29,374 nt of DNA from a virus. This document shows positions 1 to 29,374 of this stretch, piece by piece; position 1 is the stretch's first letter; each line of letters starts with the position of its first letter. The position numbers and the translations under genes were made by a program. Under the pieces are notes generated by a model. It was not told where the DNA came from, ran no database searches, and saw nothing but the letters and a program-made list of their open reading frames with translations. The stretch spans positions 1-29,374 of the IMG/VR virus record IMGVR_UViG_3300042905_005794. The stretch is one strand, 5' to 3'.

Positions 1-785
1 GCTTTATTTTCCAAACCAAGTTCTTTTACTTGTTGCATAATTTTTTCTTTTAATATATTTGGATGATATTTTAATAGTCTTTCGGTATTTGCAGACTTTT
101 GACCATTTTGTTTAAATAGACATCTATTGATAATGTTTCCCAATCGTTTGCGAATTATTTTTCTATTTCTTACTTCTGCTCTATCAGCATTCCACTTGTA
201 ACAATTTTTACCACTTTTCTTGTTATTACCACAAATGCGACAATTTTCAATTTTATTGAAATTGAAAAGACCAGTTTTTGACATATTGCCGCAATGGCAA
301 ACGTATTCAATATATGTTCTATCATTATCTTTGTTTACAAAAGATCTTATGAATTTAAACTTTTTTGTTTCACATCGTTTTTTTAATTCTTCATCTGTAA
401 CTCTATTGCTTTCTGCAATCTTTCTTGCAGTACATTGATTGCATCTAGCTCCAGCTTTAATTGATGTTAAAGATATTACATCTTTTACACCGCATGAACA
501 TAAAAATTTCATAGGCGTATTATTGCTTGTGTATTCTTTTTCAAGAAGGACACAACCATTGTCTTCAAACACAGTTTTTACTTGGTCGTATGAAAACTTA
601 ATATTACCAGCACAGAATCTACAACCTTGACCTCTTTGAAAATTATTCCATGTAATTGTTGTTGCGTGACCATTGCCGCAAATAGCACTAATCTTAGTTT
701 GTGAATTAACATACTTATCGGCAAGTGCTGTCCACCCACGATTAGCAAACTGATCTCTAACATACTCGATTGTAATCTTTGACAT
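1..785 (-). CDS. Zinc-ribbon, HNH-type homing endonuclease candidate (partial, C-terminus outside window)
   Basis: An uninterrupted frame reads leftward from an ATG at 785 to the window edge (261 codons, no stop). A clear AGGAG lies 7 nt before the ATG. The protein shows three successive zinc-ribbon-like modules with paired cysteines: CGNGH...CRFC, CSCG...CNQC and CHCG...CRIC, at about residues 30-60, 90-120 and 165-190. A basic stretch GKNCYKWNADRAEVRNRK follows, then a helical region with RTE-like 'ANTERLLKYHPNILKEKI'. That ending resembles the region just before the HNH motif in phage HNH homing endonucleases with zinc-ribbon N-termini (family knowledge). The catalytic H-N-H residues would lie beyond the window, so nuclease activity is inferred. 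It sits just downstream of the gp23 terminator with its own promoter, as free-standing homing endonucleases of T4-like phages often do. It could instead be a zinc-ribbon DNA-binding protein. Confidence 0.6.
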   Translation of the reverse strand, partial: MSKITIEYVRDQFANRGWTALADKYVNSQTKISAICGNGHATTITWNNFQRGQGCRFCAGNIKFSYDQVKTVFEDNGCVLLEKEYTSNNTPMKFLCSCGVKDVISLTSIKAGARCNQCTARKIAESNRVTDEELKKRCETKKFKFIRSFVNKDNDRTYIEYVCHCGNMSKTGLFNFNKIENCRICGNNKKSGKNCYKWNADRAEVRNRKIIRKRLGNIINRCLFKQNGQKSANTERLLKYHPNILKEKIMQQVKELGLENK

Positions 786-6957: not shown

Positions 6958-9528
6958 TTATTCTATGCTATAATCTTGGCTTTCGTTGTCTTCTTCGCTG
7001 GCGTAGTCTTTAATACCAAGGTCATATTTTTCAATATCTTCTTCTTTTGGTTCTGGAAGAGGCGCTCCACCAGAAGTAGATGGCGCTGACGATCCCATTT
7101 CGGGTGATGTTGCTCCAGTAGGAGCGGAAGGATCAAGAGGAGCTTCAGGAGTTGTTTCTGTTGGGACTTCAAGTTGGTTATTTGGTCCTTTATCTGTTGC
7201 TCCAACTTGTTCATCTTCTTGTGAAGGAATACCAACACCAAGAAGTTGTGGATTTTGTTGCAATACTTGCAATCTCGCATCTTCAAGTTTTTGCAACTTA
7301 ATCCTAGCAAGCATATCTTTTGTTTCTTCTTCTGTATAATGCATCCAAAATCGCATTAAGTCATAATCACTAATTATCCCAGCAGATTTAAGCGTTGTAA
7401 CATTCTGAATTCTATTGTTGACAATTTCAGCTCTACTTAGTTCTCTCCATTCGCTTGGAGGAGTCATGTTTATTTTCAAGTCATCATATGTTTCAGGTGG
7501 AAATCCACGCATATGTAAATGTCTTTGTGCTATTTCATAAATTCCATCTTCCAAAGAAGATTGATATCTTTCAACAGTTCTTGCAAATTTTACGTCTTGT
7601 GAAGACAAAGTAATCTTGGTTTGTGCTGGATCGTCAACATTTAGATAATTCTTAGGAAAATTGAGAGCAGTCATTAGTTTTAATCTAAAATAAATGGCAT
7701 CATCAATTTCACCAAGGTTCTGAGCACCTTGAAGAGTTTCAACTCTAGTATTTGAATTTGGTCTTGTTGGAATCCAAAAGTCTTCTTCAACTGCTGGTGG
7801 TTGGTATCTTTCTTCAACAGAAGAAGAACCAGAAAATCCATTTTGATTTAAGCTAATTTTTCTTTTACGGAATTGATCTTTCATTCTTTCAATGAATGCT
7901 TCTGCCTTGAATCCGGGAAGTTGACCTACATCGATATAAAACACTCTTCTTTCAGGCGCTCTGGCAAGACGATATGTTAACATACTGTCTTCCATCAATC
8001 TTAATTGATATGCTGGTCCTCTGGCTGGCTCAGCAATTGAACTGCCATATGGATAGAATTGCCTTCTATCCTCATTAATTCTCACATGGACGACTTGTTC
8101 TGGAGCAAACCTAATTGCGGTTGCCATTTGAATTTCTTGATCGCTAGCCACTGTTACGGGCGCACGAACCAATGATTGATAATCTGGTCCTTCTTTTGAT
8201 TGTTGGAATTCAATAACTTTTCCTTTAGTTGTTTCAATCCGATAAATACTTTCAGGAGGAAGTCTTTGAATTTTCAAAATACCTTCATTGGGAGAATCAA
8301 GATCGGTAACAAGTTCGTAAAACAAATCTCCATATAGCAAGAGGCTTTTAAAATCTGCCCATATTCTTTTATTGAAGTTAAGCATTTGTCTAGACATTAG
8401 CAAAAATTCAACTTCTTTTTTTACATCATCATTTTCAACTTCTATTTTTAAAACATTTCCATATTCATCTTTTTGACAATTGTGAACAATGGTGTGATCT
8501 GTTGCAAAATTATGATGTTCTTCAACTGTCAAATCATAAACATCTTGTTTAATTCCTTTAAATTTTCCAATTATTTTTCTTCTGTCGCTTTTATTCTTTG
8601 CAAGGTATTTAAGTTCTTGGTAGGTGAAACCGGCTTTCTTTAATCTTGCTTTAACTGTTATCCAAGTTTCTTCGACCATGGCAATAATATTGTCCATTGA
8701 CATGCCTTGGTTGATTAATCTTGTGTAAAAATTAATTGATTGATACTTTTCTATAGGTTTACCAGTACGCCATTCATCAACAAGTTGTCTTTCTGTAACC
8801 CAACCGTTATTAAACGTAAATATTCTTGGGAATTGACCGCTTATAAGATTATTATGTGTGGTGTCTGGTTTTTCACGATAGAAAGGCATCAAATCATCGC
8901 CAACCTTTAAATTCTCTGCTTGAATCCATTCTCCAGAGCGCAGAAGTACTTTATGATCTGGAGTACATTCTAACTTTCCACCATTATCAAAGATAATTTC
9001 AATAGTTTCTGATGTTTTAGTTTTTCTGGGGTTGTGTGCCCAGCCTAAAGTGTAATCTTTTTTCTTAAAATCATAACAATAAACTAAAAATTTGTCAGTA
9101 GCATTTTCTTCTGCTAGTGCTTTGATGGTTTTAAAACCAAAAGGTGTTGCAACTTTGGTGTTTCCAGAAACACATGCTTCATCTGCAAATATAGTTAAAC
9201 ATGTTTCAATTTCAGGAACAGCTCTTAGTCTCTCGTATTCTTTATATCTTGAAATTCTATTGCTTACTGTAGACAAATCAACAAAATCTTGAGATTCACG
9301 AAGTCTGATGAGTCTGTTATCTTGACCATTCCAATAAGAACCATCGGGAGAAATGCTTGGGATAGAATCTGGGCTGATAATACCAGCGCCAACAATTTCT
9401 TTAGATTGCAATCTCCTGCTTAGCGGATCTTTTTCAAACGCATAAGTAAAAGTCTTAAAAATATCTGACCAAAGTGGTGTAGGCATAATTACTTTTAATT
9501 CCTGATCTATTGTGTCAACCAAGGACAC
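6958..9528 (-). CDS. gp20: Portal vertex protein gp20-like, interrupted by an in-frame intein
   Basis: 856 codons. Removing the intein (residues 119-350) leaves a portal of 624 residues, in the T4-like range. The portal is the dodecameric ring through which DNA enters the head, and it nucleates head assembly. Portal signatures include PEIETCLTIFADEA | CQKDEYGNVLKIEV across the splice point, FNKRIWADFKSLLLYGDLFYELV, RAPERRVFYIDVGQLP, FWIPTRPNSNTRVETL, GEIDDAIYFRLKLMTALNFPKNYL and LSSQDVKFARTVERYQ. The last 100 residues are Pro/Ser/Glu-rich and low complexity. The frame opens with GTG at 9528; no strong Shine-Dalgarno is seen, and an in-frame TTG (codon 3) or ATG (codon 15, MPTPLW) cannot be excluded. 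An ACTAAATA late-type element lies at 9544-9551. Confidence 0.95.
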   Translation of the reverse strand: MSLVDTIDQELKVIMPTPLWSDIFKTFTYAFEKDPLSRRLQSKEIVGAGIISPDSIPSISPDGSYWNGQDNRLIRLRESQDFVDLSTVSNRISRYKEYERLRAVPEIETCLTIFADEACVSGNTKVATPFGFKTIKALAEENATDKFLVYCYDFKKKDYTLGWAHNPRKTKTSETIEIIFDNGGKLECTPDHKVLLRSGEWIQAENLKVGDDLMPFYREKPDTTHNNLISGQFPRIFTFNNGWVTERQLVDEWRTGKPIEKYQSINFYTRLINQGMSMDNIIAMVEETWITVKARLKKAGFTYQELKYLAKNKSDRRKIIGKFKGIKQDVYDLTVEEHHNFATDHTIVHNCQKDEYGNVLKIEVENDDVKKEVEFLLMSRQMLNFNKRIWADFKSLLLYGDLFYELVTDLDSPNEGILKIQRLPPESIYRIETTKGKVIEFQQSKEGPDYQSLVRAPVTVASDQEIQMATAIRFAPEQVVHVRINEDRRQFYPYGSSIAEPARGPAYQLRLMEDSMLTYRLARAPERRVFYIDVGQLPGFKAEAFIERMKDQFRKRKISLNQNGFSGSSSVEERYQPPAVEEDFWIPTRPNSNTRVETLQGAQNLGEIDDAIYFRLKLMTALNFPKNYLNVDDPAQTKITLSSQDVKFARTVERYQSSLEDGIYEIAQRHLHMRGFPPETYDDLKINMTPPSEWRELSRAEIVNNRIQNVTTLKSAGIISDYDLMRFWMHYTEEETKDMLARIKLQKLEDARLQVLQQNPQLLGVGIPSQEDEQVGATDKGPNNQLEVPTETTPEAPLDPSAPTGATSPEMGSSAPSTSGGAPLPEPKEEDIEKYDLGIKDYASEEDNESQDYSIE
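8479..9174 (-). mobile_element. Mini-intein in portal gene (232 residues)
   Basis: Protein-splicing element at portal residues 119-350. The N-terminal block A starts CVSGNTKVATPFG right after ...FADEA. Block B is ECTPDHKVLL with the Thr-x-x-His pair. Block F is DVYDLTVEEHHNFAT, and block G ends TIVHN with the His-Asn pair before Cys+1 of the C-extein (CQKDEYG). All residues for class 1 splicing (Cys1, TxxH, penultimate His, terminal Asn, Cys+1) are present, so it should be active. The roughly 100-residue middle has no LAGLIDADG or HNH motif. It contains a helix-turn-helix-like stretch (MDNIIAMVEETWITVKARLK), which may be a remnant of an endonuclease DNA-binding part (inference). Confidence 0.93.
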
Positions 9529-14376: not shown

Positions 14377-15921
14377 CTAGTTAGCACATGCACTAACTCT
14401 TGTGTTAGCACACTTGATAACATAGTTTGAAGAACAATTATTTTTTACTATTGGCGCAACTTTTTCTTCAATTTCAGGGCACCCATAAGGTCCGCCACAG
14501 CCACATCCACTAATCCTGTATTTCCAGCACTTACCATATTCAGGCGAGTTAGGGAGCGTGCAATTGTTTATAAAACCATCACAACTAATCATTGTTCTTC
14601 TTAATAACCCATTTTCATCAATTCTCCAAGTTTCATCAAGTAAATTATTGTAAATAATATATTTTGCTGCTTGTTGTCCGCATTTAATTGATTCATCAAT
14701 GTCAGAATCAATCATACCCATCACGCCATTACCAGCATCATATGTTAAGTCATCAACAGGCAGTCTAATTTTAAGATTTTTGTACCTGTCATCTTCAACA
14801 TGAAGAATGTCACTAAGACTAGCTTGATATTCAAACTTCATCATCGTGAACATTTCATCCTTTTCCTCTCTCAACTTAATTTTTTCTTTATTTTCATGAA
14901 TATTCATTTTTACAGATATAGGCATCATGTTTTTTGCAACAAAAACATTTTTGGCAATTTCTGCAAGTTGAGGATTGATTGTTTTGCCAAAATCATAGAA
15001 AACTTTAGCAAATGCGGTGTAAAAATTTGGAACTGATGGCACAAGTTTAATACAACGGAACAAAGTGTCACGAACAAAATCACGAGCTAATTTGACAGAT
15101 GCAACATTCTTGCCATTTACAGTGTAAATTTCAGCAAAAATTCTATATAATGCTCCACTCATAACTCTTGAGAAGTTATGAGGTTGTTTTGTCAAAGCTT
15201 CTTTATTTGTACTTGCATTCGCCAAAGTGCTTGGGTTTGCATAATTAAGATCATTGTCAACATTTCTCAAATACCCATTCATGCCAATTCCAGTGCCAAA
15301 TTGTTCAGCTAACTTGGAAACTATGCTGCTTTCAAATAGGTTTCCTTTTGTTTCGTTGATCATGAAGTTAATTATTGTATCATGATGCAAAGAAGCTAAA
15401 AACGCAAACACATCACCAAATGCTTCATGAAATGCCCAAATTTCTATAGACCCAACTGACCAAAAATCTGGTCTTAAGCAATCAAGAACAGCATGACCAA
15501 GTTCGTGAGTGATAACATCGGCTGACAAAGCCGTGTAAATCTTTTTTCCATCTCTGCCGTTAAACCAGAAAAAACTAAGACCTACTCTGTCGTAGTAAGC
15601 ATTTGGCATTTGACCAGCATTTGGTTTAATTATTAGTGTTTTAGTCTTTGACCACGCATTTATTTTGTTGGGAGAATAATTATTGTAAAAATTATTCATG
15701 GCAAACATCAAAGTGCCCAAAGCATTTGATGCTAAACCAGCATTAGTATCAAATTTTTCATTGGGTCCAGTATATCCAACAGTGCTAAATAACGTAGAAG
15801 GGGCAAAGTTAATCACTTCTGTTAAAGTTGGAGTAGTCGGATCATTCAAATAATATTTTATATTTTGTTTCGTAACATTAGCAGGTTTATTATTTGTCGT
15901 ATTATTTTTTTTAATAGCCAT
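14377..15921 (-). CDS. Thermolysin-type zinc metalloprotease (gluzincin)
   Basis: 514 residues. Zinc motif HELGH at 139-143 is followed 22 residues later by FHEAFGD with the third ligand Glu at 166. This matches the M4 pattern HELTHAVTD...NEAMSDIFG and gives metal binding plus catalytic Glu140. The upstream VGLSFFWFNGRDGK and the downstream helix FLASLHHD fit the same fold. There is no signal peptide, so it acts in the cell or as part of the virion. The C-terminal 75 residues are Cys-rich (CDGFINNC, CWKYRISGCGCGGPYGCPE) and may form a second metal or disulfide site. AAGGAGG is 5 nt before the ATG, and a perfect T4 late element TATAAATA lies 29 nt upstream. It is followed by the acidic protein. 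Target unknown. Confidence 0.88.
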   Translation of the reverse strand: MAIKKNNTTNNKPANVTKQNIKYYLNDPTTPTLTEVINFAPSTLFSTVGYTGPNEKFDTNAGLASNALGTLMFAMNNFYNNYSPNKINAWSKTKTLIIKPNAGQMPNAYYDRVGLSFFWFNGRDGKKIYTALSADVITHELGHAVLDCLRPDFWSVGSIEIWAFHEAFGDVFAFLASLHHDTIINFMINETKGNLFESSIVSKLAEQFGTGIGMNGYLRNVDNDLNYANPSTLANASTNKEALTKQPHNFSRVMSGALYRIFAEIYTVNGKNVASVKLARDFVRDTLFRCIKLVPSVPNFYTAFAKVFYDFGKTINPQLAEIAKNVFVAKNMMPISVKMNIHENKEKIKLREEKDEMFTMMKFEYQASLSDILHVEDDRYKNLKIRLPVDDLTYDAGNGVMGMIDSDIDESIKCGQQAAKYIIYNNLLDETWRIDENGLLRRTMISCDGFINNCTLPNSPEYGKCWKYRISGCGCGGPYGCPEIEEKVAPIVKNNCSSNYVIKCANTRVSACAN

Positions 15922-16489: not shown

Positions 16490-17359
16490 ATGTATTATGA
16501 AAAACAATATCTTGAAATAAAATCATGGATATCTGAGGTTGAAGGAAAAATATTATTTTGTTCTGGTGCATTTGGCGATCTGTTCATCGGTATAGATGCT
16601 GCATTGAAGAACAATTTGCCAATTATTTATTGGAGTAAACCAGCCACACATGAAATTTCTTTAAAATTTCTTGAAGCGTTTAATATGAAATATCATGTTG
16701 TTGACACAGGGAAAGAAATTTGGCGTGATTCAAACACATGTGAGTTTTCTAATAAAATAAAAGATTTGTTGACAAATAAAGGGTTTAGAACGCACGGAAA
16801 TAACAAGTGTAATTTGCCATTTATTGGTTTTAATCCAGATGTATTATGTGAAAAATACAATAGTTTTAAAGAATTTAAGTTAAACTTACCCAAAAATTAC
16901 GCTTTGATTTGTCCTTGTGGCAGCACTGTTAGCAATATATCTAAAAGATTTTTTACGAATGATGAAATTGAAAAAATTACAACAATTCTTTTGAATAAAA
17001 ACATAGAACCAGTTATTGTAGGAAGTGATAGACAACTTCAAAGTTACGACAAACGAAAAAAGTTTAAATGGTTACAGTTTGAAAAATTTGAAAATCAAAA
17101 AATAACCGTTGGTCATTTTGTAGAAGCAATAAGATCATGTATGTTTGCACTGTCTCCAGACACATCTCTTAAAAGTTTATCTGCCGCAATGCATGTCCCA
17201 ACTTTTGTTCTGAAAAATAGAAATTCTAGTAACATATTCGTCAAAGGCAGTTGGGACTACATATTTCTTGATAAAAACAAATGGAAAACATTGGAAGTTT
17301 TCACTTTTAGTGAATTAATTAATAAATTAAACAAATTTTATCCATTAAAAATGATTTAA
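16490..17359 (+). CDS. GT9-like (heptosyltransferase-fold) glycosyltransferase
   Basis: 289 residues with a GT-B layout. The N-terminal domain has a Gly-rich start (ILFCSGAFGDLFIGIDAALK). The C-terminal domain has the diagnostic pieces of ADP-heptose LPS heptosyltransferase-type enzymes: ICPCGSTVSNISKRFF (about 140-155), a strand-loop PVIVGSDRQ (174-182), and SPDTSLKSLSAAMHVPT (222-238), equivalent to the family's D-[ST]-x-x-x-[HK]-x-x-A-A-x-x-x-x-P nucleotide-sugar site. The donor and acceptor cannot be told. It is shorter than bacterial heptosyltransferases (about 320-350). With the sugar genes at 21450-28647 it suggests phage-driven glycan synthesis. No Shine-Dalgarno before the ATG. Its stop shares a TTAA with the convergent structural gene. 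Confidence 0.75.
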   Translation: MYYEKQYLEIKSWISEVEGKILFCSGAFGDLFIGIDAALKNNLPIIYWSKPATHEISLKFLEAFNMKYHVVDTGKEIWRDSNTCEFSNKIKDLLTNKGFRTHGNNKCNLPFIGFNPDVLCEKYNSFKEFKLNLPKNYALICPCGSTVSNISKRFFTNDEIEKITTILLNKNIEPVIVGSDRQLQSYDKRKKFKWLQFEKFENQKITVGHFVEAIRSCMFALSPDTSLKSLSAAMHVPTFVLKNRNSSNIFVKGSWDYIFLDKNKWKTLEVFTFSELINKLNKFYPLKMI

Positions 17360-18189: not shown

Positions 18190-18636
18190 TTAATAATTTA
18201 GAAGCCTCTTATATTTATCTACATCACCTTGACTTTTTTCTATTTGTTTCTCATAAAAAACTTCTAACCACTTTTTTATGACCTTGTCATTCAGATGATC
18301 AAGAGACTCAATTCTGTTTACATAGTTATCTACGACTTCTTCTTCCATTGTTAAAGCATATTTTAAAGATTCATTAGGAGATGTGAAAATTTCAAATTTT
18401 TCGTGACCATGAGCTTCTGTACAATTAAGATCACCGCCAATTCCAACAATCATGTCTTGAAACTCTTTAACATGTTTCATTTCTTCTTCTGCTTCATCCG
18501 CAAACATTTCAATATATTCTATTGCATCAATTCCTTTAATTGAACTACAATTAGAAAGATAAAACAACATATGTTTGCGTTCATTACGCAAATCCAAATA
18601 CAATAAACTCATGAATTCATCGCTAAGTTTTGCCAT
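18190..18636 (-). CDS. Ferritin-like diiron four-helix protein
   Basis: 148 residues from the ATG at 18636. The GGAGG 9 nt upstream decides this start; a longer GTG start would contain the site. Four helices carry a ferritin-type di-iron pattern: Glu19 in LRNERKHML, Glu52-x-x-His55 in EEMKH, Glu99/100 in MEEEVVDNY, and FYEKQIEK with Gln131/Glu133, which lines up with the F-x-x-E-Q-x-E-E helix of ferritins of the FtnA type rather than the E-x-x-H of bacterioferritin. The length is near ferritin (about 165) but slightly short. Iron oxidation or storage, or protection from peroxide, is the family role; function in a phage is inferred. Some ferritin-like proteins have other redox roles. Confidence 0.8.
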   Translation of the reverse strand: MAKLSDEFMSLLYLDLRNERKHMLFYLSNCSSIKGIDAIEYIEMFADEAEEEMKHVKEFQDMIVGIGGDLNCTEAHGHEKFEIFTSPNESLKYALTMEEEVVDNYVNRIESLDHLNDKVIKKWLEVFYEKQIEKSQGDVDKYKRLLNY

Positions 18637-18682
18637 TTTCAACCCCTCCACAATAAATATAGCTTATTTTCTGAAAATAATT

Positions 18683-21449: not shown

Positions 21450-22520
21450 ATGATTAATATCAATAAACCCTATCTTCCAGATATAAATAAATATATAGAT
21501 AAAATAAAAACTATTTGGGATACAAACCATTTAACCAACTACGGTCCACTTCATAAAGAACTTGAAGCAAAACTATGTAAATACTTGGATGTTAAAGACT
21601 TGTGTTTGGTCAATAGTTGCAGCAATGGCTTGCTGATGTGTTTGAATGAATTTGATCCTGATTGCGAAATTATAACAACACCATTTTCTTTTATTGCTAC
21701 AACATCTTCAATCGTTTGGTCAAAACTAAAACCTGTTTTTTGTGATATAGATCCAGAATATCTGTTTATTGACATAAACAAAATAAAAAGTTTAATTACA
21801 CCTAAAACAAAAGCTGTCCTAACAACTCATGTTTATGGCAATACAGGAAACTTGGAAGAACTAGAAACAATCTGCAAAGAAAATAATATTAAATTAATTT
21901 TTGATGCAGCGCATGCATTCGGCGTAAAATATAAAGAAAAATCAATATTAGAATATGGTGATATGTCTATACTTAGTTTTCATGCTACAAAAGTTTATCA
22001 CACCATTGAAGGTGGAGCAATTTATGTAAAAGATGAAGAAAAAATGGCAGAAATGAAAACAAAAGGAAATTTTGGGTATAAAAATTATCAGATAGAATCA
22101 TTAGGCATAAACTCTAAAATGTCAGAATTCAATGCAGCTATGGGTCTGTGTTCATTAGAAGAAATTGATGATATTATAGATAACAGAAAACAATCATTTG
22201 AATATTATGATAAGTTATTGTACAAATCATACAAAAGAAATTACATCAGGAAGCCAAGGAAAAATGTAAATATAAAAGAAAATTATTCTTATTATCCAAT
22301 CATTTTTAATAATGAAAATGATTTGTTAATTTGTGTAGAAAAATTAAATTCTAAAAATATATTTCCAAGAAGATATTTTTATCCTTCATTGAATACAATT
22401 AACTATTTGCAAAATGTAGAAATGCCTATATCTGAAAGCATTTCAAAAAGAATACTTTGTTTGCCTTTATTTATGGGAATAAGCAAAGTTGATATAGAGA
22501 CTATAACTGATCAAATATAA
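21450..22520 (+). CDS. DegT/DnrJ/EryC1/StrS-type PLP sugar aminotransferase
   Basis: 356 residues. It adds an amino group to a nucleotide-linked keto-sugar, using PLP and usually glutamate. Family signatures appear in order: TNHLTNYGPLHKELE (25-39), VNSCSNGLLMCL (54-65), ITTPFSFIATTSSIVWSKLKPVFCDID (75-101), TTHVYGNTG (125-133), IFDAAHAFGV with PLP-contact Asp152, and SFHATKVYHTIEGGAI with the Schiff-base Lys181. The length is slightly below the usual 370-390 because the C-terminal domain is compact. The exact sugar (4-amino or 3-amino) cannot be read from the sequence. It is next to glycosyltransferases and a sulfotransferase, so it probably supplies an amino sugar for a phage-made glycan. 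It lacks a Shine-Dalgarno. Confidence 0.9.
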   Translation: MININKPYLPDINKYIDKIKTIWDTNHLTNYGPLHKELEAKLCKYLDVKDLCLVNSCSNGLLMCLNEFDPDCEIITTPFSFIATTSSIVWSKLKPVFCDIDPEYLFIDINKIKSLITPKTKAVLTTHVYGNTGNLEELETICKENNIKLIFDAAHAFGVKYKEKSILEYGDMSILSFHATKVYHTIEGGAIYVKDEEKMAEMKTKGNFGYKNYQIESLGINSKMSEFNAAMGLCSLEEIDDIIDNRKQSFEYYDKLLYKSYKRNYIRKPRKNVNIKENYSYYPIIFNNENDLLICVEKLNSKNIFPRRYFYPSLNTINYLQNVEMPISESISKRILCLPLFMGISKVDIETITDQI

Positions 22521-22546
22521 TTGATATTCTATTTTTGTTATTTGCT

Positions 22547-23731
22547 CTAAAAGCTATTTAATATATTTACTTTTTGTTCAAATGTTTTATTTTCCATCAA
22601 AATATTAAGATGATTTAAATCTCTACCCAATTTGTATTTACCCGCACCAATATTAATTAAAGATTTTATTCTTGCGTGAGGAGACTTTTTATACCAATAC
22701 GGTGTTTCACTTATTACACCACATTTTAAACATTCAAATCCTATAGTGGCATGATCTGTATCAAATTCACCATTATTGTTATTCAAATAATCTGCATCAT
22801 AATCGACTTGATATAACTTCTTATATTTACCAGAATTTATATTCTTCACTGTAAATTTCATAAATTCTTTGTCATTTGTATAATTTATGGGTTGCTCCCC
22901 ATCAATCAATCCGTTTATTACAAAACAACAGTTTCTATGTTTTGTGTTTACTTTAAAATCGAAATTTATGCTTGATCCACCTAAATAATCTCCTTTATTG
23001 TGCATTATTCTTGCCATTACATTTTTAATCATTGGTATTTCTACTTTTTTGTTGTTGCGCAAATAATATTCTTCAAGCCTTGCATTTAAGTCTAGATCAG
23101 CATAATGTCTTGTGTTAGTTACTACCTCATCTATTCCATTAACTTCCAACCACAAACTTCTATCTATGCAATAATGACCCCAACAAGAATTGTTAAATTT
23201 ATAAGTTTTTGATTCTTCCAATAATATTTTCGGAAATATGCCTTCTTTGTACATTTCGTTTGCTTCATTAACTGATATTGTCATTGTATGGTTTTCATGA
23301 TTATTGTTTTTAACACTACAATCATCTTTATAAAGTATTTGCCATTCAAATCCAACAAAACTAAAATTACTCATTTGCCTTAAAATTTTGATTAATTCTG
23401 GATGACAAAACCTCCAATCTTGAAATGTAATAATTTTATTTGTATGCGCCATCAAAACAGCATTGTTGAATATACCATAATCAAATGATTTAGGGACATT
23501 TGGATTAACTACATAAGGGAAATGGACAACATGGTACTGAAGTGTTTTACTAAATTCTGATAGCCAAGATCTTTTAGAATAATGAGGATCTGGAATAACA
23601 ACTTCAAAAGACTTATCTGTTTGATAATTCAAATTGATTAATTGGGATTTCAATAATTCATCATTGCCTATAAGGTAAAATGGAGCCATGATGAAACTAT
23701 AATCAATATTACGACGTTTGTAACGCATCAT
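22547..23731 (-). CDS. GT2-like (GT-A fold) glycosyltransferase with C-terminal extension
   Basis: 394 residues. The N-terminal part (about 10-110) is a GT-A nucleotide-binding fold: YSFIMAPFYLIGNDELLKSQLINLNYQTDKSFEVVIPDP, then FNNAVLMAHTNKIITFQDWRFCHPEL, where QDW takes the place of the DxD metal site. The acceptor part has SCWGHYCIDRSLWLEVNGIDEVVTNTRHYADLDLNARL, the 'W...R..F...GG.DE......DL...R' pattern of family 2 enzymes. The last 180 residues add a unit with a CLKC pair, a possible zinc site. The missing canonical DxD makes the metal dependence uncertain. It is convergent with the aminotransferase, an ideal neighbour for use of the amino sugar. AATATATA is 5 nt before the ATG. Confidence 0.82.
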   Translation of the reverse strand: MMRYKRRNIDYSFIMAPFYLIGNDELLKSQLINLNYQTDKSFEVVIPDPHYSKRSWLSEFSKTLQYHVVHFPYVVNPNVPKSFDYGIFNNAVLMAHTNKIITFQDWRFCHPELIKILRQMSNFSFVGFEWQILYKDDCSVKNNNHENHTMTISVNEANEMYKEGIFPKILLEESKTYKFNNSCWGHYCIDRSLWLEVNGIDEVVTNTRHYADLDLNARLEEYYLRNNKKVEIPMIKNVMARIMHNKGDYLGGSSINFDFKVNTKHRNCCFVINGLIDGEQPINYTNDKEFMKFTVKNINSGKYKKLYQVDYDADYLNNNNGEFDTDHATIGFECLKCGVISETPYWYKKSPHARIKSLINIGAGKYKLGRDLNHLNILMENKTFEQKVNILNSF

Positions 23732-23736
23732 TTTAT

Positions 23737-23744
23737 TATATATT
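23737..23744 (-). promoter_or_regulatory. Late-promoter-like element abutting start codon (23731)
   Basis: AATATATA on the minus strand, 5-nt spacer ATAAA, then ATG. Confidence 0.4.
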
Positions 23745-23745
23745 A

Positions 23746-23805
23746 TTAACTACAAAAATAATACAATATAGAAAATATTATATTTTTTGATCTGCCACAA
23801 CACAT
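23746..23805 (-). pseudogene. Truncated second copy of the MCCGRSK small gene
   Basis: AGGAGGA and an ATG at 23805 open a frame MCCGRSKN that leaves the homology after seven codons and stops after 19 residues. The first seven residues are identical to those of the gene at 21407, and 22 of 23 nt match over the start region. It is a remnant of duplication or insertion, or an unrelated mini-protein that reuses the start. Confidence 0.5.
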
Positions 23806-23832
23806 TTGTCCTCCTCGTTAATATATTAAATT

Positions 23833-24495
23833 ATGAATGTTTTAGTATCAACTGTGCCACGATCAGGAAGCACATTATTATTTAATATGTGTCGCTTATT
23901 ATTTGAAAAAGCTTATGGGAAAGAAAAAATATATTCTAATTGGTATCAATTTTATAAAACAAACGATGAAAAAGAATATAATATAAAAAAAATACACGAC
24001 AGAGTTCAAAAAGATGTTCAGTGGTCAGACAAAATTGTAACAACAGTAAGAGATATAAGATACATAATGGCAAGTTATTACGATTTTAACAAAAAATTTG
24101 ATATTAATAATAAAGAAAAATTAAAAAATGCCTGCAAAGGTTTTATTGAAATGATGGAATCAAATATACCAATTTCTAGCTATGTTTTTAAATATGAAGA
24201 TTTTTTTTCAGACAAAGCTAAAGTTATATCAGAATTAGCAAGTGCTTTAGAAATCGCAAAAAACAAAATTAATATTAACTTTGTAATTGACGAAATAGAA
24301 AAAATCAAAACAGCAAAATATCTAAAATTAGATAAAAATTTAACACAAATGCATCCTAACCACATTAGCCCGAAAACATCTGAAGATATAAAAAACAGAC
24401 TAACAAAAGAACAATTGTCTTTCATAGAAGAAAACTGTTCTTGTTTTTTAAGAAAACATAACTACAAATTAATTAGTTCTATAAAGATACTTTGA
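23833..24495 (+). CDS. PAPS-dependent sulfotransferase-like protein
   Basis: 220 residues. It would transfer sulfate from PAPS to a hydroxyl or amine of a sugar or other acceptor. The 5'-phosphosulfate loop PRSGSTLL (9-16) follows the first strand. The 3'-phosphate motif VTTVRDIRYIMASYY supplies Arg73 and Ser81, and SYVFKYEDFF is the usual 'YEDL' strand. A C-terminal HPNHIS stretch fits the family's last loop. It is small for the family but complete. No membrane segment, so probably cytoplasmic. It follows the sugar genes and is 6 nt before the next gene in the same direction. AATATATT is 5 nt before the ATG and no Shine-Dalgarno is seen. Confidence 0.85.
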   Translation: MNVLVSTVPRSGSTLLFNMCRLLFEKAYGKEKIYSNWYQFYKTNDEKEYNIKKIHDRVQKDVQWSDKIVTTVRDIRYIMASYYDFNKKFDINNKEKLKNACKGFIEMMESNIPISSYVFKYEDFFSDKAKVISELASALEIAKNKININFVIDEIEKIKTAKYLKLDKNLTQMHPNHISPKTSEDIKNRLTKEQLSFIEENCSCFLRKHNYKLISSIKIL

Positions 24496-24501
24496 TAAAA
24501 C

Positions 24502-25116
24502 ATGGAACTTAAAAATAAAGAACTTTGTGGAAAAAACATCTATTTTGTCAAAAGATCAAATAGGTTTTCCATGTATTTCAATGACAAAAAAGTAGGAGAA
24601 ATAGAACTAAATAACGAAGGCAATATTATTGCTCTAAAAGCATATAATAAAAAATATGTCAAAAATTTAATTTATTATATAGATTCTCATAAAAATTTAA
24701 CAATAGATGATATAAATGGATTTCCAAATAAATATGAATATTTAGAAAAAATAAAAGATAGAATGCATCCAGATCTTCTTATGAAACACGCAATATTAGC
24801 AAATAGCACTACGCTTGCTAGATATGCCTTAGAAAGAGAAGCTTGCTTAACTAAAGAAACAATTATAAGTTCTGCTATAAATAGTTCTAAGATATTAGAG
24901 ATTCATATTAGCAACAATGTTGGATATTTAGAAGAAGCTATGGAAGCAGCATTTGAAAATAAGAACTATGGAAGCATAAAAGTACTTATTAAAAAGACAA
25001 AAAATATTAATGAATATATTAACAGATGCAATGAAGAAGATAAGTACCAATTAATAAAAAAATATTTAATACAAGAATTAGTCAAGAGAAATAAAAAAAG
25101 CAATATTGACATTTGA
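24502..25116 (+). CDS. Hypothetical helical-repeat-like protein, 204 aa
   Basis: The N-terminal 55 residues are strand-rich (KNIYFVKRSNRFSMYFNDKKVGEIEL). From about residue 85 on it is a series of helices with a rough 30-35-residue period (HAILANSTTLARYALEREA, SSAINSSKILEIHISNNVG, EAAFENKNYGSIKVLIKK). This suggests ankyrin-type or other helical repeats, but the ankyrin consensus is too weak to be sure. Its spacing from the sulfotransferase (6 nt) makes it part of the same transcript. Function unknown. Confidence 0.7.
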   Translation: MELKNKELCGKNIYFVKRSNRFSMYFNDKKVGEIELNNEGNIIALKAYNKKYVKNLIYYIDSHKNLTIDDINGFPNKYEYLEKIKDRMHPDLLMKHAILANSTTLARYALEREACLTKETIISSAINSSKILEIHISNNVGYLEEAMEAAFENKNYGSIKVLIKKTKNINEYINRCNEEDKYQLIKKYLIQELVKRNKKSNIDI

Positions 25117-25119
25117 TGT

Positions 25120-25127
25120 TCTAAATA
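25120..25127 (+). promoter_or_regulatory. Late-promoter-like element of SWIM-like gene
   Basis: TCTAAATA. With T4 spacing +1 is near 25133, giving a 16-nt leader that contains AAAGGA before the ATG at 25149. Confidence 0.45.
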
Positions 25128-25148
25128 GTACAAAGACAAAGGAATAAT

Positions 25149-25655
25149 ATGAATGACTTGTGGTTGGTTGAAATGGATCTTTCATCATTATTGGCTAATA
25201 CAGAAGTTCACCATCATGGTAGAATTACTGCGGCAAATGATGTTGAAGTAAATCATGTTGAATATGAATTGCTTCCTCCTAATACTTTTATGATCAGAGG
25301 AACTATTGGAGGATTGACTGACAGTTACAAAGCAATAATAAAATTTCCTGAAGTAAAAATGAAAGGCAGAACTCCTGTTAACACAATTACAGGTATACAA
25401 AAAATATCTAAAATAAATGCCAAGAATGGTAATGTAGAAGTATTTTGCACTTGTGAATTTTTCAAATGGGCTTTCAATACATCAAACAATAAAGTTAAAG
25501 CGTTATTCGACCCATCAAGTAATTTGAGAAAAGAACAACCAATTGGTTCACCACGAGGTCGATCACCCAATCCAACTGGTGTTCCGGGTTTATGTAAACA
25601 TTTAGTTGCTTTAACCAATTATCTCAAAGATGCAAAAATTATTTTCAAGGTATAA
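25149..25655 (+). CDS. SWIM-like zinc-binding protein
   Basis: 168 residues. The C-terminal half has Cys100-x-Cys102 in VEVFCTCEFFKWAFN and Cys149-x-His151 in GVPGLCKHLVALTNYL, the C-x-C...C-x-H arrangement of SWIM zinc fingers. A long Pro/Gly/Arg loop separates them (SPRGRSPNPTG). This form with an F-x-W-A-F strand and a 'GxCKHL' end occurs in many tailed phages as a virion-linked protein of unknown role (family knowledge, not searched). The N-terminal half is strand-rich and may be a second domain. AAAGGA before the ATG supports the start. A nucleic-acid or protein contact role is inferred. Confidence 0.72.
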   Translation: MNDLWLVEMDLSSLLANTEVHHHGRITAANDVEVNHVEYELLPPNTFMIRGTIGGLTDSYKAIIKFPEVKMKGRTPVNTITGIQKISKINAKNGNVEVFCTCEFFKWAFNTSNNKVKALFDPSSNLRKEQPIGSPRGRSPNPTGVPGLCKHLVALTNYLKDAKIIFKV

Positions 25656-25660
25656 AATTT

Positions 25661-26521
25661 TTACATAAATAATTTGAATTTTGAAGAATCATTGTTTCTG
25701 TTAATGTACCAATCTTTCACAAATTCATAATATTTGTTTTTTGGAAAATTATTCAAATTAATTTCATGAATTTTTCTCTTGTCAAATATCCTGTCACATG
25801 AATAATGACAAATATAATGACTGTCAGATAAACTCGTTTCAGGAGGAACGTGACACCAATCTCTGGCAATAAGATTAACATTGTTGTTGGCACAAGCAAC
25901 TTGAAATGAATACATTCCAGACCACCAACGAATTGATTCAAGATTACTAGCCGGATTGTCTTTAACAATCTTAACGTGAAAATCAATCCAATCATCTAAA
26001 ATCTTTTTAAATGTTTTTGCTTTACCAACTAATGGAACAAATCCGCCATTGTAATCACCATGATTTGGTTTTAAATATTTTTCTATCACATGTTTGTTAC
26101 TAGTAAGACTTTTTAAATGCCAATTTTCGTAAATCGCAGAAACGTAAATTTCATCATCTTTAGGTCTAACATCAGGATGTGGTTTAATATGAAACATATC
26201 ACAATCTAAAACTTCTATTATTTCATCATCATCAAAACAATGAATTATCTGTTTTAATCCATATTGTATATTTAGAGGAACAAATATAGGATCTTTTATA
26301 TCTTTCTCAAACTCAAAAAATGGTTTGCAAATTTCATAAGTAATGTCAATATTCCAATCAAAACTTTTAAATTCTGGCTCATTAATGGTGTTTCTTTCCA
26401 CTATTACAGCAAAAGCTTTTTTATTAGCTTGTTCCCCATAAACTTTTTTGTGAGAACGCCAAAACAAACTTAATTGCCATTTAAAAGTGTCATTGTAAAC
26501 TGCTATAGGTATACTTATCAT
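25661..26521 (-). CDS. GT-A glycosyltransferase, HPAT/SERGT-like
   Basis: 286 residues. The metal motif Asp106-Cys-Asp108 sits in EVLDCDMFHIKP after a long GT-A nucleotide fold. DYNGGFVPLVGKAKTFKKILDDW (156-178) and RWWSGMYSFQVACANNNV (198-215) follow. The last block resembles the 'W...MYA[FY]S.A.A' segment of hydroxyproline-arabinosyl and serine-galactosyl transferases, so a protein-linked sugar is a possible acceptor, but this is inference from a short motif. Its ATG overlaps the stop of the upstream GH130-like gene by 4 nt, so it is translationally coupled with that protein and probably works on the same glycan. Confidence 0.8.
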   Translation of the reverse strand: MISIPIAVYNDTFKWQLSLFWRSHKKVYGEQANKKAFAVIVERNTINEPEFKSFDWNIDITYEICKPFFEFEKDIKDPIFVPLNIQYGLKQIIHCFDDDEIIEVLDCDMFHIKPHPDVRPKDDEIYVSAIYENWHLKSLTSNKHVIEKYLKPNHGDYNGGFVPLVGKAKTFKKILDDWIDFHVKIVKDNPASNLESIRWWSGMYSFQVACANNNVNLIARDWCHVPPETSLSDSHYICHYSCDRIFDKRKIHEINLNNFPKNKYYEFVKDWYINRNNDSSKFKLFM

Positions 26522-27543
26522 AAAACACTCACCATTGTATTCAAAAGGTCTTGTAATCCATATTCTGCAATTTTAACAGAAGAATCATTATCACCATAAC
26601 TTATTATAACTTTGTTTTTTTCATATATCATTCCTAAAGGGAAGTTACAAACTATTTCATTCTCTCTTCTAAAATGCTTTTCACAAGCAGCCTCTGCTGG
26701 CAGATATGTCCTGTTAGCACACTTCAAAACATTAAAAGGAGGCTTGCCAGAAAACAAATAACATCCATTGTCATAATGTCGAATATTATTATGATGTACA
26801 GATGTGTGAAAAGTTGCTAAATAATTACCATCTGGTAAAAGAACGGCATTTGTGTTTCCTCTAAGCGGCTCTTTAATCAACCAAGGACTTTTCCATTCAG
26901 TATGACAGATTTTATTGCAATTTTCACCATCTTGTAACTCATAAATTATATGAGGACAAACGGATGCTATAAGATATATCTTATCATTATAATTAAAAGG
27001 CATCCAGTTTTTTTGTCTACCTTCTAATTCATGTGGACTTACTCTAAAAGAAGAAGAATTAACAAAATTGCCATTATTCCTATTATCCATTATAACACAA
27101 CCACGAATATGTTCTTTTTCAAAACCAACTTCGTCAATTGATGCGTAAAACAAAATTAATTGATCTTTTTCGTTCCACAAAATTCTTGGATCTGCACAAT
27201 TTTTCATGTCAAGATCATAATAACTATCTTTTATTACATTGTAATTTTGGTCTAAATAACATGCTACAAATCTTTGTTCATCAGATCTAAAAACACACAC
27301 AATTTTGTTGCCGTCACATTGAGCAATAGCTCCATTAAATGAACCATTTTCTTTTAACTTAATACGATGAAACTTACCGTTAACTCTTGTAAAAAAACGA
27401 GCATTAAGCCTTTTATTGTTTTTGCATTTGTCATTATCAATTATTTCATTTTCAATAATGTAATTTAACGTATTGACATCAACATTATTATTCTTCTTTT
27501 TAGCAACTTCTAACAATTTACTTATTTTGAATCTATTGTTCAT
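26518..27543 (-). CDS. GH130-like five-bladed beta-propeller, copy A
   Basis: 341 residues. It has the pattern of the GH43/GH130 propeller clan, where GH130 members cut or phosphorolyse beta-mannosides and related proteins act as mannosyltransferases. Visible landmarks: FNGAIAQ...CVFR (69-86), CADPRILW (116-123) at the place of the family's EDPR, KNWMPFNYNDKIYLI (178-192), a RGNTNAVLLPDGNYLATFH block (228-246), YDNGCYLFSGKPPF, and VCNFPLGMIYEKNKVIISYGDND (298-320). The first 50 residues are a helical extension outside the propeller. The nearest full-length relative in the window is copy B. It is co-translated with the GT-A gene. Whether it hydrolyses, phosphorolyses or transfers cannot be told. 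Confidence 0.75.
   Translation of the reverse strand: MNNRFKISKLLEVAKKKNNNVDVNTLNYIIENEIIDNDKCKNNKRLNARFFTRVNGKFHRIKLKENGSFNGAIAQCDGNKIVCVFRSDEQRFVACYLDQNYNVIKDSYYDLDMKNCADPRILWNEKDQLILFYASIDEVGFEKEHIRGCVIMDNRNNGNFVNSSSFRVSPHELEGRQKNWMPFNYNDKIYLIASVCPHIIYELQDGENCNKICHTEWKSPWLIKEPLRGNTNAVLLPDGNYLATFHTSVHHNNIRHYDNGCYLFSGKPPFNVLKCANRTYLPAEAACEKHFRRENEIVCNFPLGMIYEKNKVIISYGDNDSSVKIAEYGLQDLLNTMVSVL
26671..26778 (-). repeat. Near-identical 108-nt block, copy A
   Basis: Matches 27766-27873 at 106 of 108 bases, by direct reading. It lies in the 3' part of both propeller genes, far more alike than their 5' quarters. The constant offset of 1,095 also holds for other matching stretches. Confidence 0.9.
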
Positions 27544-27612
27544 GTTATTGCTCTTAATAATAAAAATTAATTGTTTTAATATGCATTCGTACTCTTTGAT
27601 TGCATTGTTTTT

Positions 27613-28647
27613 TTATTTAACGACAACCATTGTATTAAGCAAATCTTTTAAATCATATTCTACTATCTTAACCAAAGTATCATTATCACCATAACTTATT
27701 ATAACTTTGTTTTTTTCATATATCATTCCAACAGGAAAATTACAAACTATTTCATTGGCTTTTCTAAAATGCTTTTCACAAGCAGCCTCTGCTGGCAGAT
27801 ATGTTCTATTAGCACACTTCAAAACATTAAAAGGAGGCTTGCCAGAAAACAAATAACATCCATTGTCATAATGAAATTTGTTTTTGTATTTCATGGCTGT
27901 ATGGAAAGTGGATAAATAATTACCATCTGGCAGAAGAACAGCATTAGTGCTTCCCCTAAGCGGCTCTTTAATCAACCAAGGACTACTCCATTTTTCTTCA
28001 TGTAATTTACAACTATCTCTGTCGTCTTTTAACTCATATACAACATGAGGATTTACATGAGCAATCAAATATATCTTGTCATTATAATTAAAAGGCATCC
28101 AGTTTTTTTGTCTATCTTTAAAATTTGCACTACTTACTCTAAAAGCTGGTCTATCAACAAATTTACCACTTTTTCTGTCTTCCATTATTACAGAACCACA
28201 AATGCATTCTCTATTAGATTTTGAATAATCAAAAGAAGCATAAATTAAAATCAACTCATTCTTATCATTCCATAAAACTCTTGGATCAGCACCTTTTTTT
28301 ATATTAAATTTATAATAACTATGTTTTATTGGATTATAATTGTTATCAAGATAACATGCAGTGAAATTATCCTCATTCGGTCTGTACACACAAATCAATT
28401 TTTCATCATCATACCTAACAATACCAGCATTAAAAGAACCTTTTTCGGGCATATGAATAGAATGAAAATTACCATCAACTTTAGTCAAAAACTTTTCACT
28501 CAATCTTGGTTTATTTAAACCTTCTAGCTTTGTCATTTTTATCATGTTTAATGTCTCTTCTGGAGAATTAATTTTATTAACACCAATTGATTTGACTATT
28601 TTGTTTTTTTTGTAAGGAGATTCACTTACTTTATAAACTTTTATCAT
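27613..28647 (-). CDS. GH130-like five-bladed beta-propeller, copy B
   Basis: 344 residues, a tandem paralogue of copy A. Landmarks are shared: FNAGIVR...CVYR, GADPRVLW, KNWMPFNYNDKIYLIAHVNPHVVYEL, RGSTNAVLLPDGNYLSTFH, and NFPVGMIYEKNKVIISYGDND. The C-terminal third is almost identical to copy A, while the first 50 residues are unrelated (IKVYKVSESPYKKNKIVKS), so the two probably have different N-terminal contacts or acceptors. CATAAATA stands 5 nt before the ATG with no Shine-Dalgarno. It may be the first gene of a leftward transcript through copy A and the GT-A gene, with 69 nt between the two copies. Confidence 0.75.
   Translation of the reverse strand: MIKVYKVSESPYKKNKIVKSIGVNKINSPEETLNMIKMTKLEGLNKPRLSEKFLTKVDGNFHSIHMPEKGSFNAGIVRYDDEKLICVYRPNEDNFTACYLDNNYNPIKHSYYKFNIKKGADPRVLWNDKNELILIYASFDYSKSNRECICGSVIMEDRKSGKFVDRPAFRVSSANFKDRQKNWMPFNYNDKIYLIAHVNPHVVYELKDDRDSCKLHEEKWSSPWLIKEPLRGSTNAVLLPDGNYLSTFHTAMKYKNKFHYDNGCYLFSGKPPFNVLKCANRTYLPAEAACEKHFRKANEIVCNFPVGMIYEKNKVIISYGDNDTLVKIVEYDLKDLLNTMVVVK
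27766..27873 (-). repeat. Near-identical 108-nt block, copy B
   Basis: Partner of 26671-26778, with 2 mismatches. This is recent duplication or gene conversion between the two propeller genes. Confidence 0.9.
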
Positions 28648-28820: not shown

Positions 28821-29374
28821 TTAACTAACATATTCAGTAATTGTCAACATTGCCTTTGATTTGTCCACTGTCAACACATCTTCTCCAGTCAACATAGCAG
28901 CTTGAACAGCAATAGTTGTCTCCGCTGCTGTAGCATTCTGATACAAGTAAGAAACTGGGAACAATACATTTCCACGAATATCCGAAGCACCGGGTGAACC
29001 TGAAGCGGCAAATGCCTGAGTCCTAGTAATTATAGGACTGCCACTTACCATAATTCTTGATCCAAAACTATCTCCACCTGAACCATCAATTGTATAATTA
29101 GCATCAAAACCAACTACAATATTGGTTCCAGAACGAACTGGTGTGTAACTAACTGACATAATATTAGTATATGTACCACTAATACTGGTATATGTCCCAG
29201 TACTTACATTCAATGATGTGTTCAACAATTGACCAGTACCATTACCACGAATAACTCCAGTTGCAGAAATATTACCGCTAACTGTTACTGCACCGTTAAT
29301 ATTAGCACTAGCGGCATTAATCGCACCACTAGATGTAATTGCACCTACAGCTATAATATTACCGCTAACTGTTA
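28821..29374 (-). CDS. Tail-fibre-like protein with TVSGNI repeats (partial, N-terminus outside window)
   Basis: 183 residues are visible, open at the right edge. An in-frame TTG at 29228 is not needed as a start, since the frame continues upstream to the edge. The right part is a repeat of short strands, TVSGNIIAVGAITSSGAINAASANINGAVTVSGNISATGV, of the kind that forms trimeric beta-helical shafts in phage fibres. The C-terminal 130 residues (LNVSTGTYTSISGTYTNIMSVSYTP...) are beta-rich and look like a head or tip domain. Identification as a fibre or whisker-type adhesin is from repeat type and composition. A strong terminator follows the stop. Confidence 0.8.
   Translation of the reverse strand, partial: TVSGNIIAVGAITSSGAINAASANINGAVTVSGNISATGVIRGNGTGQLLNTSLNVSTGTYTSISGTYTNIMSVSYTPVRSGTNIVVGFDANYTIDGSGGDSFGSRIMVSGSPIITRTQAFAASGSPGASDIRGNVLFPVSYLYQNATAAETTIAVQAAMLTGEDVLTVDKSKAMLTITEYVS
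29268..29287. repeat. 20-nt direct repeat in fibre gene, copy 1
   Basis: The same 20 bases recur at 29355-29374. The period of 87 nt is 29 codons and keeps the frame, encoding TVSGNI twice. Confidence 0.9.
29355..29374. repeat. 20-nt direct repeat in fibre gene, copy 2
   Basis: Partner of 29268-29287. It runs to the window edge, so more copies may follow. Confidence 0.85.

Follow-up and report, generated by a model that had tools for sequence, protein, structure and literature searches.

A recombining glycan cassette in a T4-like phage and its possible role in virion-protein glycosylation

The window analysed here is the whole 29,374-base IMG/VR virus record IMGVR_UViG_3300042905_005794, which comes from a T4-like phage and carries, between the terminase gene (TerL) and the contig end, an island of genes for a sugar aminotransferase, glycosyltransferases (GTs), a sulfotransferase and two GH130-type propellers (positions 21,450 to 28,647). 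The island is a recombining glycan cassette, and we give a probability of about one half to the reading that its product is a decorated oligosaccharide attached to side-chain hydroxyls of a virion protein. The gp23 major capsid gene (Pfam, E 2e-86) and the genes of the gp20 portal and the S77 prohead protease lie in the same window. The window probably represents part of a large phage genome, since its terminase shares 46% identity with the one from an uncultured phage of 595 kb and contigs with cassette relatives reach up to 436 kb. The contigs compared are metagenomic fragments; relative loci are labelled by L-numbers (L003, L008 etc.), L008 being contig 3300032305_002837.

Enzymes of the cassette

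The families proposed by an earlier, sequence-only reading were largely recovered at their places, the DegT, sulfotransferase, HPAT and two GH130 genes by Pfam and the GT2 gene through its relatives only, whereas the match of a GT9-like gene was weak (E 0.049). Two interleaved genes (24502-25116 and 25149-25655) were missing from that reading. The island comprises:

21450-22520, plus strand: DegT/DnrJ/EryC1 sugar aminotransferase (Pfam E 4.2e-80)
22521-22546: deletion junction; at this exact point L008-L010 have a Methyltransf_24 gene, about 0.6 kb long
22547-23731, minus strand: GT-A/GT2-like glycosyltransferase, assigned via relatives, with no Pfam match of its own
23833-24495, plus strand: 3'-phosphoadenosine-5'-phosphosulfate (PAPS)-type sulfotransferase (Sulfotransfer_1, Pfam E 1.2e-9)
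24502-25116, plus strand: conserved protein, labelled ankyrin-like without Pfam confirmation, adjoining the sulfotransferase in the window, L003, L008 and L054
25149-25655, plus strand: SWIM-zinc-finger-like conserved protein (weak Pfam match), cassette-linked in relatives
25661-26521, minus strand: HPAT-family (PF23452) GT-A glycosyltransferase (Pfam E 4.9e-10)
26518-27543, minus strand: GH130-type five-bladed propeller, copy b (Glyco_hydro_130, Pfam E 5.4e-7)
27613-28647, minus strand: GH130-type five-bladed propeller, copy a (Glyco_hydro_130, Pfam E 8.1e-10)

The HPAT protein, whose gene overlaps that of GH130 copy b by 4 bp, scored 39.7 bits against a Pfam gathering cut-off of 23.9 for PF23452, a family whose plant and algal members transfer arabinose to hydroxyproline or galactose to serine (HPAT/SERGT; GT95/GT96). 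Its DxD metal motif (DCD106-108) is invariant in 24 sequences. The AlphaFold model (predicted local distance difference test, pLDDT, 90.8) has a GT-A fold, with glycogenin, also a GT-A enzyme, as the best match (Z 15.8, root-mean-square deviation (rmsd) 3.5, 220 aligned) and a Z of 14.0 to the Skp1 alpha-galactosyltransferase 6mw5. The HPAT profile gave no true match among PDB sequences, and the structural assignment is therefore one of fold comparison alone.

The model of GH130 copy a (pLDDT 85.4) is a five-bladed propeller that matches the GH130 mannoside phosphorylase 4udg with Z 26.2 (rmsd 2.9, 268 residues aligned) and the GT108 mannosyltransferase MPT-2 with Z 22.3. Residues N73, R89, D121, R123, K181, H249, Y260 and D323 are invariant across 20 relatives, and the catalytic Asp, in the DPR element (D121-x-R123), aligns with the EDPR motif of 7fip, the assignment being made by profile alignment and not from superposed coordinates. 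The fold, the catalytic Asp and its flanking residues are thus conserved as in the GH130 phosphorylases and GT108 mannosyltransferases; unlike these, the window type forms part of phage GT cassettes or is fused to them, and it is only about 11-16% identical to solved members. The two copies share 93-98% nucleotide identity over about 180 bases near the 3' end and mostly 57-75% elsewhere, the near-identical stretch falling within window positions 26531-26830 and 27626-27925. This uneven identity suggests gene conversion between the tandem copies.

The DegT protein scored 270 bits (Pfam gathering cut-off 19.8), and its closest NCBIfam models are 4-keto-6-deoxy-sugar aminotransferases (DesI, FdtB/WecE, PseC), all under their equivalog cut-offs; relatives at 90-99% occur in L008-L010. 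The profile made from the GT2-like open reading frame (ORF) also finds L055:8939-10006, which is Glycos_transf_2 by Pfam (1.7e-7), and the motifs FQDWRFCH and RHYADLD are invariant across six relatives. In the sulfotransferase, compared in three sequences, the 5'-phosphosulfate-binding (5'-PSB) loop PRSGSTLLF is invariant and the 3'-phosphate-binding (3'-PB) motif RDIRYxxASY is conserved; the family is rare and is therefore no core part of the module. The ratio of nonsynonymous to synonymous substitution (dN/dS) of the island genes against their relatives is 0.09-0.32 where dS is unsaturated, which indicates that the genes are maintained. A search inside the window for prolyl 4-hydroxylase (P4H), Methyltransf_24, PglD and pyruvyl transferase genes found none.

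Linkage and recombination in relatives

Relatives of the HPAT, GH130, DegT and GT2 proteins were gathered from viral contigs; searches of 50,697 annotated phage records gave no relatives of GH130, GT2 or HPAT. A search with the two GH130 paralogues alone returned nothing, and a wider alignment yielded 35 viral loci. GH130 lineages were counted with one representative each at 85% identity, leaving out the remote unfused L071-L077, L079, L080, L084 and L085. A GT2-type transferase and a Methyltransf_24 gene were found within a few genes of GH130 in 15 of the 16 lineages, the exception being L060; the proposal of a linked gene set, which scattered genes in relatives would have contradicted, thus passed the neighbourhood test. 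Some lineages also contain DegT, sulfotransferase, PglD-like and pyruvyl transferase genes, and L059 combines GH130, a Sulfotransfer_2 protein, a PglD/NeuD-like acetyltransferase, GT2, Methyltransf_24, DegT and a pyruvyl transferase within about 6 kb. L014, L016 and L078 encode fusion proteins in which GH130 follows a GT2-like part. Of the loci with this module, the window, L003 and L004 alone include HPAT, which in each case comes immediately after GH130.

The comparison of the window with L008 showed a mosaic. The flanks are 83-90% identical, DegT 98.6% and GT2 95.4%, and identity drops to 69% over the sulfotransferase and the next two genes; HPAT is not present in L008. The junction between DegT and GT2 indicates that the methyltransferase (Methyltransf_24) was recently lost from the window by a clean deletion. 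Such a mosaic island is what variable surface decoration would be expected to show.

HPAT and hydroxylases in other phages and bacteria

The scan of viral contigs gave 35 HPAT loci. In nine checked contigs, belonging to two separate HPAT clades (L039:6865-8849, L025, L026, L027, L028, L035, L042, L047 and L048), the start of the HPAT gene abuts or overlaps the end of an intact P4H gene of about 380 codons. The C-terminal domain of the L039 protein matches the Chlamydomonas prolyl 4-hydroxylase P4H-1 (E 1e-40), and the iron and 2-oxoglutarate (2OG) ligands HxD...H...K are kept in all nine genes. The gene order in L039 is terminase, portal, P4H, HPAT, major head protein; homologues follow the same order in L026, L027, L042 and L047, and the other contigs match for the part covered. 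Between L039 and L042/L047 the capsid is about 99% identical and P4H and HPAT only 77-84%, from which it follows that the modifying pair diverges much faster. This pairing in the capsid gene block suggests that some phages hydroxylate, and then glycosylate, their own proteins.

Since the phages with adjacent P4H and HPAT genes share one terminase-portal-capsid background, they count as few independent events, and independent support is supplied by the gene fusions, the divergent arrangement and the bacterial cases. In L019 HPAT and a P4H-like gene are transcribed divergently next to a gene for the baseplate wedge, HPAT is fused to 2OG-oxygenase domains in L007, and in L005 it is fused to Methyltransf_24. 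When bacterial genomes were scanned, three gammaproteobacterial metagenome-assembled genomes (MAGs; L090, L092, L093) proved to encode HPAT joined to a JmjC/Cupin_8 hydroxylase domain that resembles JMJD5 (E 3e-33), and two Planctomycetes MAGs (L089, L091) a fusion to PF11397, the family of the Skp1 hydroxyproline GlcNAc-transferase, with an FkbM methyltransferase added in L091. Several architectures thus link the HPAT family to protein hydroxylases or to a hydroxyproline transferase, and several of the phage ones lie among virion genes. The acceptor hydroxyl in these related systems is probably made by the partner prolyl or JmjC hydroxylase. No paper on a phage with a hydroxyproline arabinosyltransferase, or on a phage with a prolyl hydroxylase, GT and sulfotransferase, was found in the open-licence literature.

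Other features of the window

Two further features accompany the cassette:

16490-17359, plus strand: possible GT9-like (heptosyltransferase-type) glycosyltransferase, a weak match below the cut-off; a 58% relative lies at the same place in L010
21300-21407, minus strand: 35-residue peptide ORF that begins with MCCGRSKK and is found again next to the cassette in L003, L008 and L054

Peptide ORFs of this MCCGR[SP] type, with 33-37 residues and a Lys-rich tail, are also present at window position 23805 (minus strand), L003:19347 (plus), L008:13067 (minus) and L054:12628 (plus); of the two window copies, which have a 23-bp repeat in common, the second is truncated.

Elsewhere in the window, the gp20 portal gene (6958-9528) contains an intein (PF14890). 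The product of a gene at 14377-15921 (minus strand) combines an M4 metalloprotease domain of thermolysin type (HELGH...EAFGD) with a C-terminal part rich in Cys; its conservation in relatives is 82-90%. A ferritin-like protein (PF00210, E 9e-12) is encoded at 18190-18651 (minus strand) by a gene that adjoins the terminase gene, and an HNH endonuclease-like ORF at 3-785 (minus strand), cut by the contig end, adjoins the gp23 gene. The T4-type late promoter TATAAATA occurs no more often than expected by chance; no Rfam family was matched and no tRNA was found in the window.

Discussion

From the families, motifs, folds, linkage and recombination described above we infer the sugars, the order of steps and the acceptor of a possible pathway. 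DegT, by its enzyme class, would form a nucleotide-linked 4-amino-6-deoxy sugar from a keto-sugar. The HPAT-type GT-A enzyme may then place the first sugar on Ser/Thr or on a hydroxylated residue of a virion protein, and the GT2-type transferase would extend the glycan. The GH130 propellers may add or trim a mannose-type sugar, acting as GT108-like transferases or as phosphorylases in the synthetic direction, a direction proposed because GH130 is fused to GTs in relatives. Finally, the sulfotransferase would cap the glycan with sulfate, and the surface glycan of the phage would be diversified by exchange of alleles within the cassette.

The proposal that the genes make and attach a sulfated or amino glycan, already put forward by the sequence-only reading, fits the enzyme families, their linkage in relatives and the lack of polytopic membrane genes in the window. 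Its further suggestion that the HPAT-like enzyme points to glycosylation of a virion protein has gained strong, if indirect, support from P4H adjacency and hydroxylase fusions elsewhere, and is weakened by a window in which no hydroxylase was found. A hydroxylase (PF13640) is likewise absent from the records of L003 and L004, in which HPAT also lies beside GH130, all three being fragments; the first sugar may therefore be placed on Ser/Thr, the SERGT type of acceptor, or on a residue that an enzyme encoded elsewhere has hydroxylated. Several other observations also count against the virion reading. No oxygenase gene was seen close to HPAT in the contigs L006, L020, L032, L036, L038 and L043, neither an acceptor protein nor a sequon was identified, and cytoplasmic enzymes of these types could equally act on lipid-linked or lipopolysaccharide (LPS) sugars of the host. 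The ORF at 28821-29374, which had been called a fibre gene, is Gly/Ser/Ala-rich, repetitive and cut by the contig end, and matches no Pfam or PHROG family, so that the description of the island as lying beside a fibre gene was not borne out.

Phage GTs are usually assigned to DNA or to host LPS. The chief alternative to a virion acceptor, which we consider rather unlikely, is that the cassette remodels the LPS or capsule sugars of the infected cell, with a role in superinfection exclusion or pseudolysogeny. DegT, GTs, PglD and pyruvyl and sulfotransferases are typical of LPS and capsule loci, and the mosaic exchange fits surface-antigen variation; the GT clusters of jumbo cyanophages (P-SSM2-type) are read in this sense in PMC7824862. 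However, the window, itself a fragment, contains no ORF with at least two predicted membrane segments, and none of the polytopic membrane proteins (flippase, polymerase, GtrA-like) expected of an LPS or capsule locus was found in it. Moreover, HPAT is partnered by hydroxylases, and several of the genes near it in phages encode capsid, portal or baseplate proteins. These points weigh against a host-surface target without excluding it. Glycosylation of modified bases in the phage DNA is a frequent role of phage GTs, as in T4, and arabinosyl-hydroxymethylcytosine occurs in some T4-like phages. It is nevertheless very improbable here, where the annotated genes include no recognisable hydroxymethylase or other base-modification partner, where a sulfotransferase, DegT and pyruvyl transferase would be unusual for DNA, and where HPAT is partnered by prolyl or JmjC hydroxylases.

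The GH130 family is best known for mannoside phosphorylases, to whose structures the model compares with a Z of 26, and the propellers might phosphorolyse host mannosides whose products the other genes process for phage metabolism. This recycling of host sugars, offered earlier as a second option, is not favoured and seems quite improbable, as GH130 lies with, or is fused to, GTs and a methyltransferase instead of kinases or mutases, and the sulfotransferase and aminotransferase have no obvious place in it. Mosaic identity, gene loss and tandem duplication with conversion mark the island as a hot spot, in which independent cargo genes could have gathered without a joint pathway; this is improbable in view of the overlapping reading frames, the fusions and the recurrence of the same families together in distant phages (15/16 lineages).

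Glycosylation of virion proteins would have parallels in known systems. The mycobacteriophages, which have different hosts, carry glycans on capsid and tail-tube protein (Freeman et al. 2023, as cited in PMC12619734). The O-arabinosylation of hydroxyproline in plant extensins (P4H with HPAT, GT95) and the SERGT reaction (GT96) share the Pfam family PF23452 with the window enzyme, and P4H and HPAT are encoded by adjacent genes in other phages; in contrast to the plant system, the window belongs to a prokaryotic virus, its sequence similarity is remote (E 5e-10) and no P4H was seen in it. In the Dictyostelium Skp1 system (P4H, Gnt1/PF11397 and further GTs) a cytoplasmic protein is hydroxylated and then glycosylated, as we propose here from sequence; the bacterial HPATs fused to PF11397 resemble it, with different domains in a different order. 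The mycobacteriophage enzymes are, to our knowledge, different ones, and we know of no hydroxylase or HPAT in that system.

The sugar and LPS gene clusters of P-SSM2-type T4-like cyanophages (PMC7824862) come close in another respect, being found in T4-like phages, combining several GTs with sugar-modifying enzymes and being polymorphic between related phages. As far as the consulted portion of that source goes, HPAT, GH130 and sulfotransferase are not described in them, the target proposed is the host surface, and they include epimerases, sugar kinases and nucleotidyltransferases, none of which was recognised in the window.

A wider, more tentative proposal, to which we give less credence than to a virion acceptor for the cassette, is that tailed phages and some bacteria run an extensin-like or Skp1-like modification, in which a 2OG or JmjC oxygenase would hydroxylate a virion protein and a translationally coupled HPAT would glycosylate the hydroxyl so created. 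The phage of the window would have built HPAT into a larger cassette for amino and sulfated sugars, to which relatives may add methyl and pyruvyl groups. The cassette defines a recurrent GH130-GT2-methyltransferase module in large phages, of which no description was found. If the reading is true, the coupled P4H and HPAT genes located between portal and capsid would provide a phage route to hydroxyproline-type glycosylation, the first of which we know, and this would bear on receptor binding, on immune recognition and on how the eukaryotic hydroxyproline-glycosylation enzymes arose.

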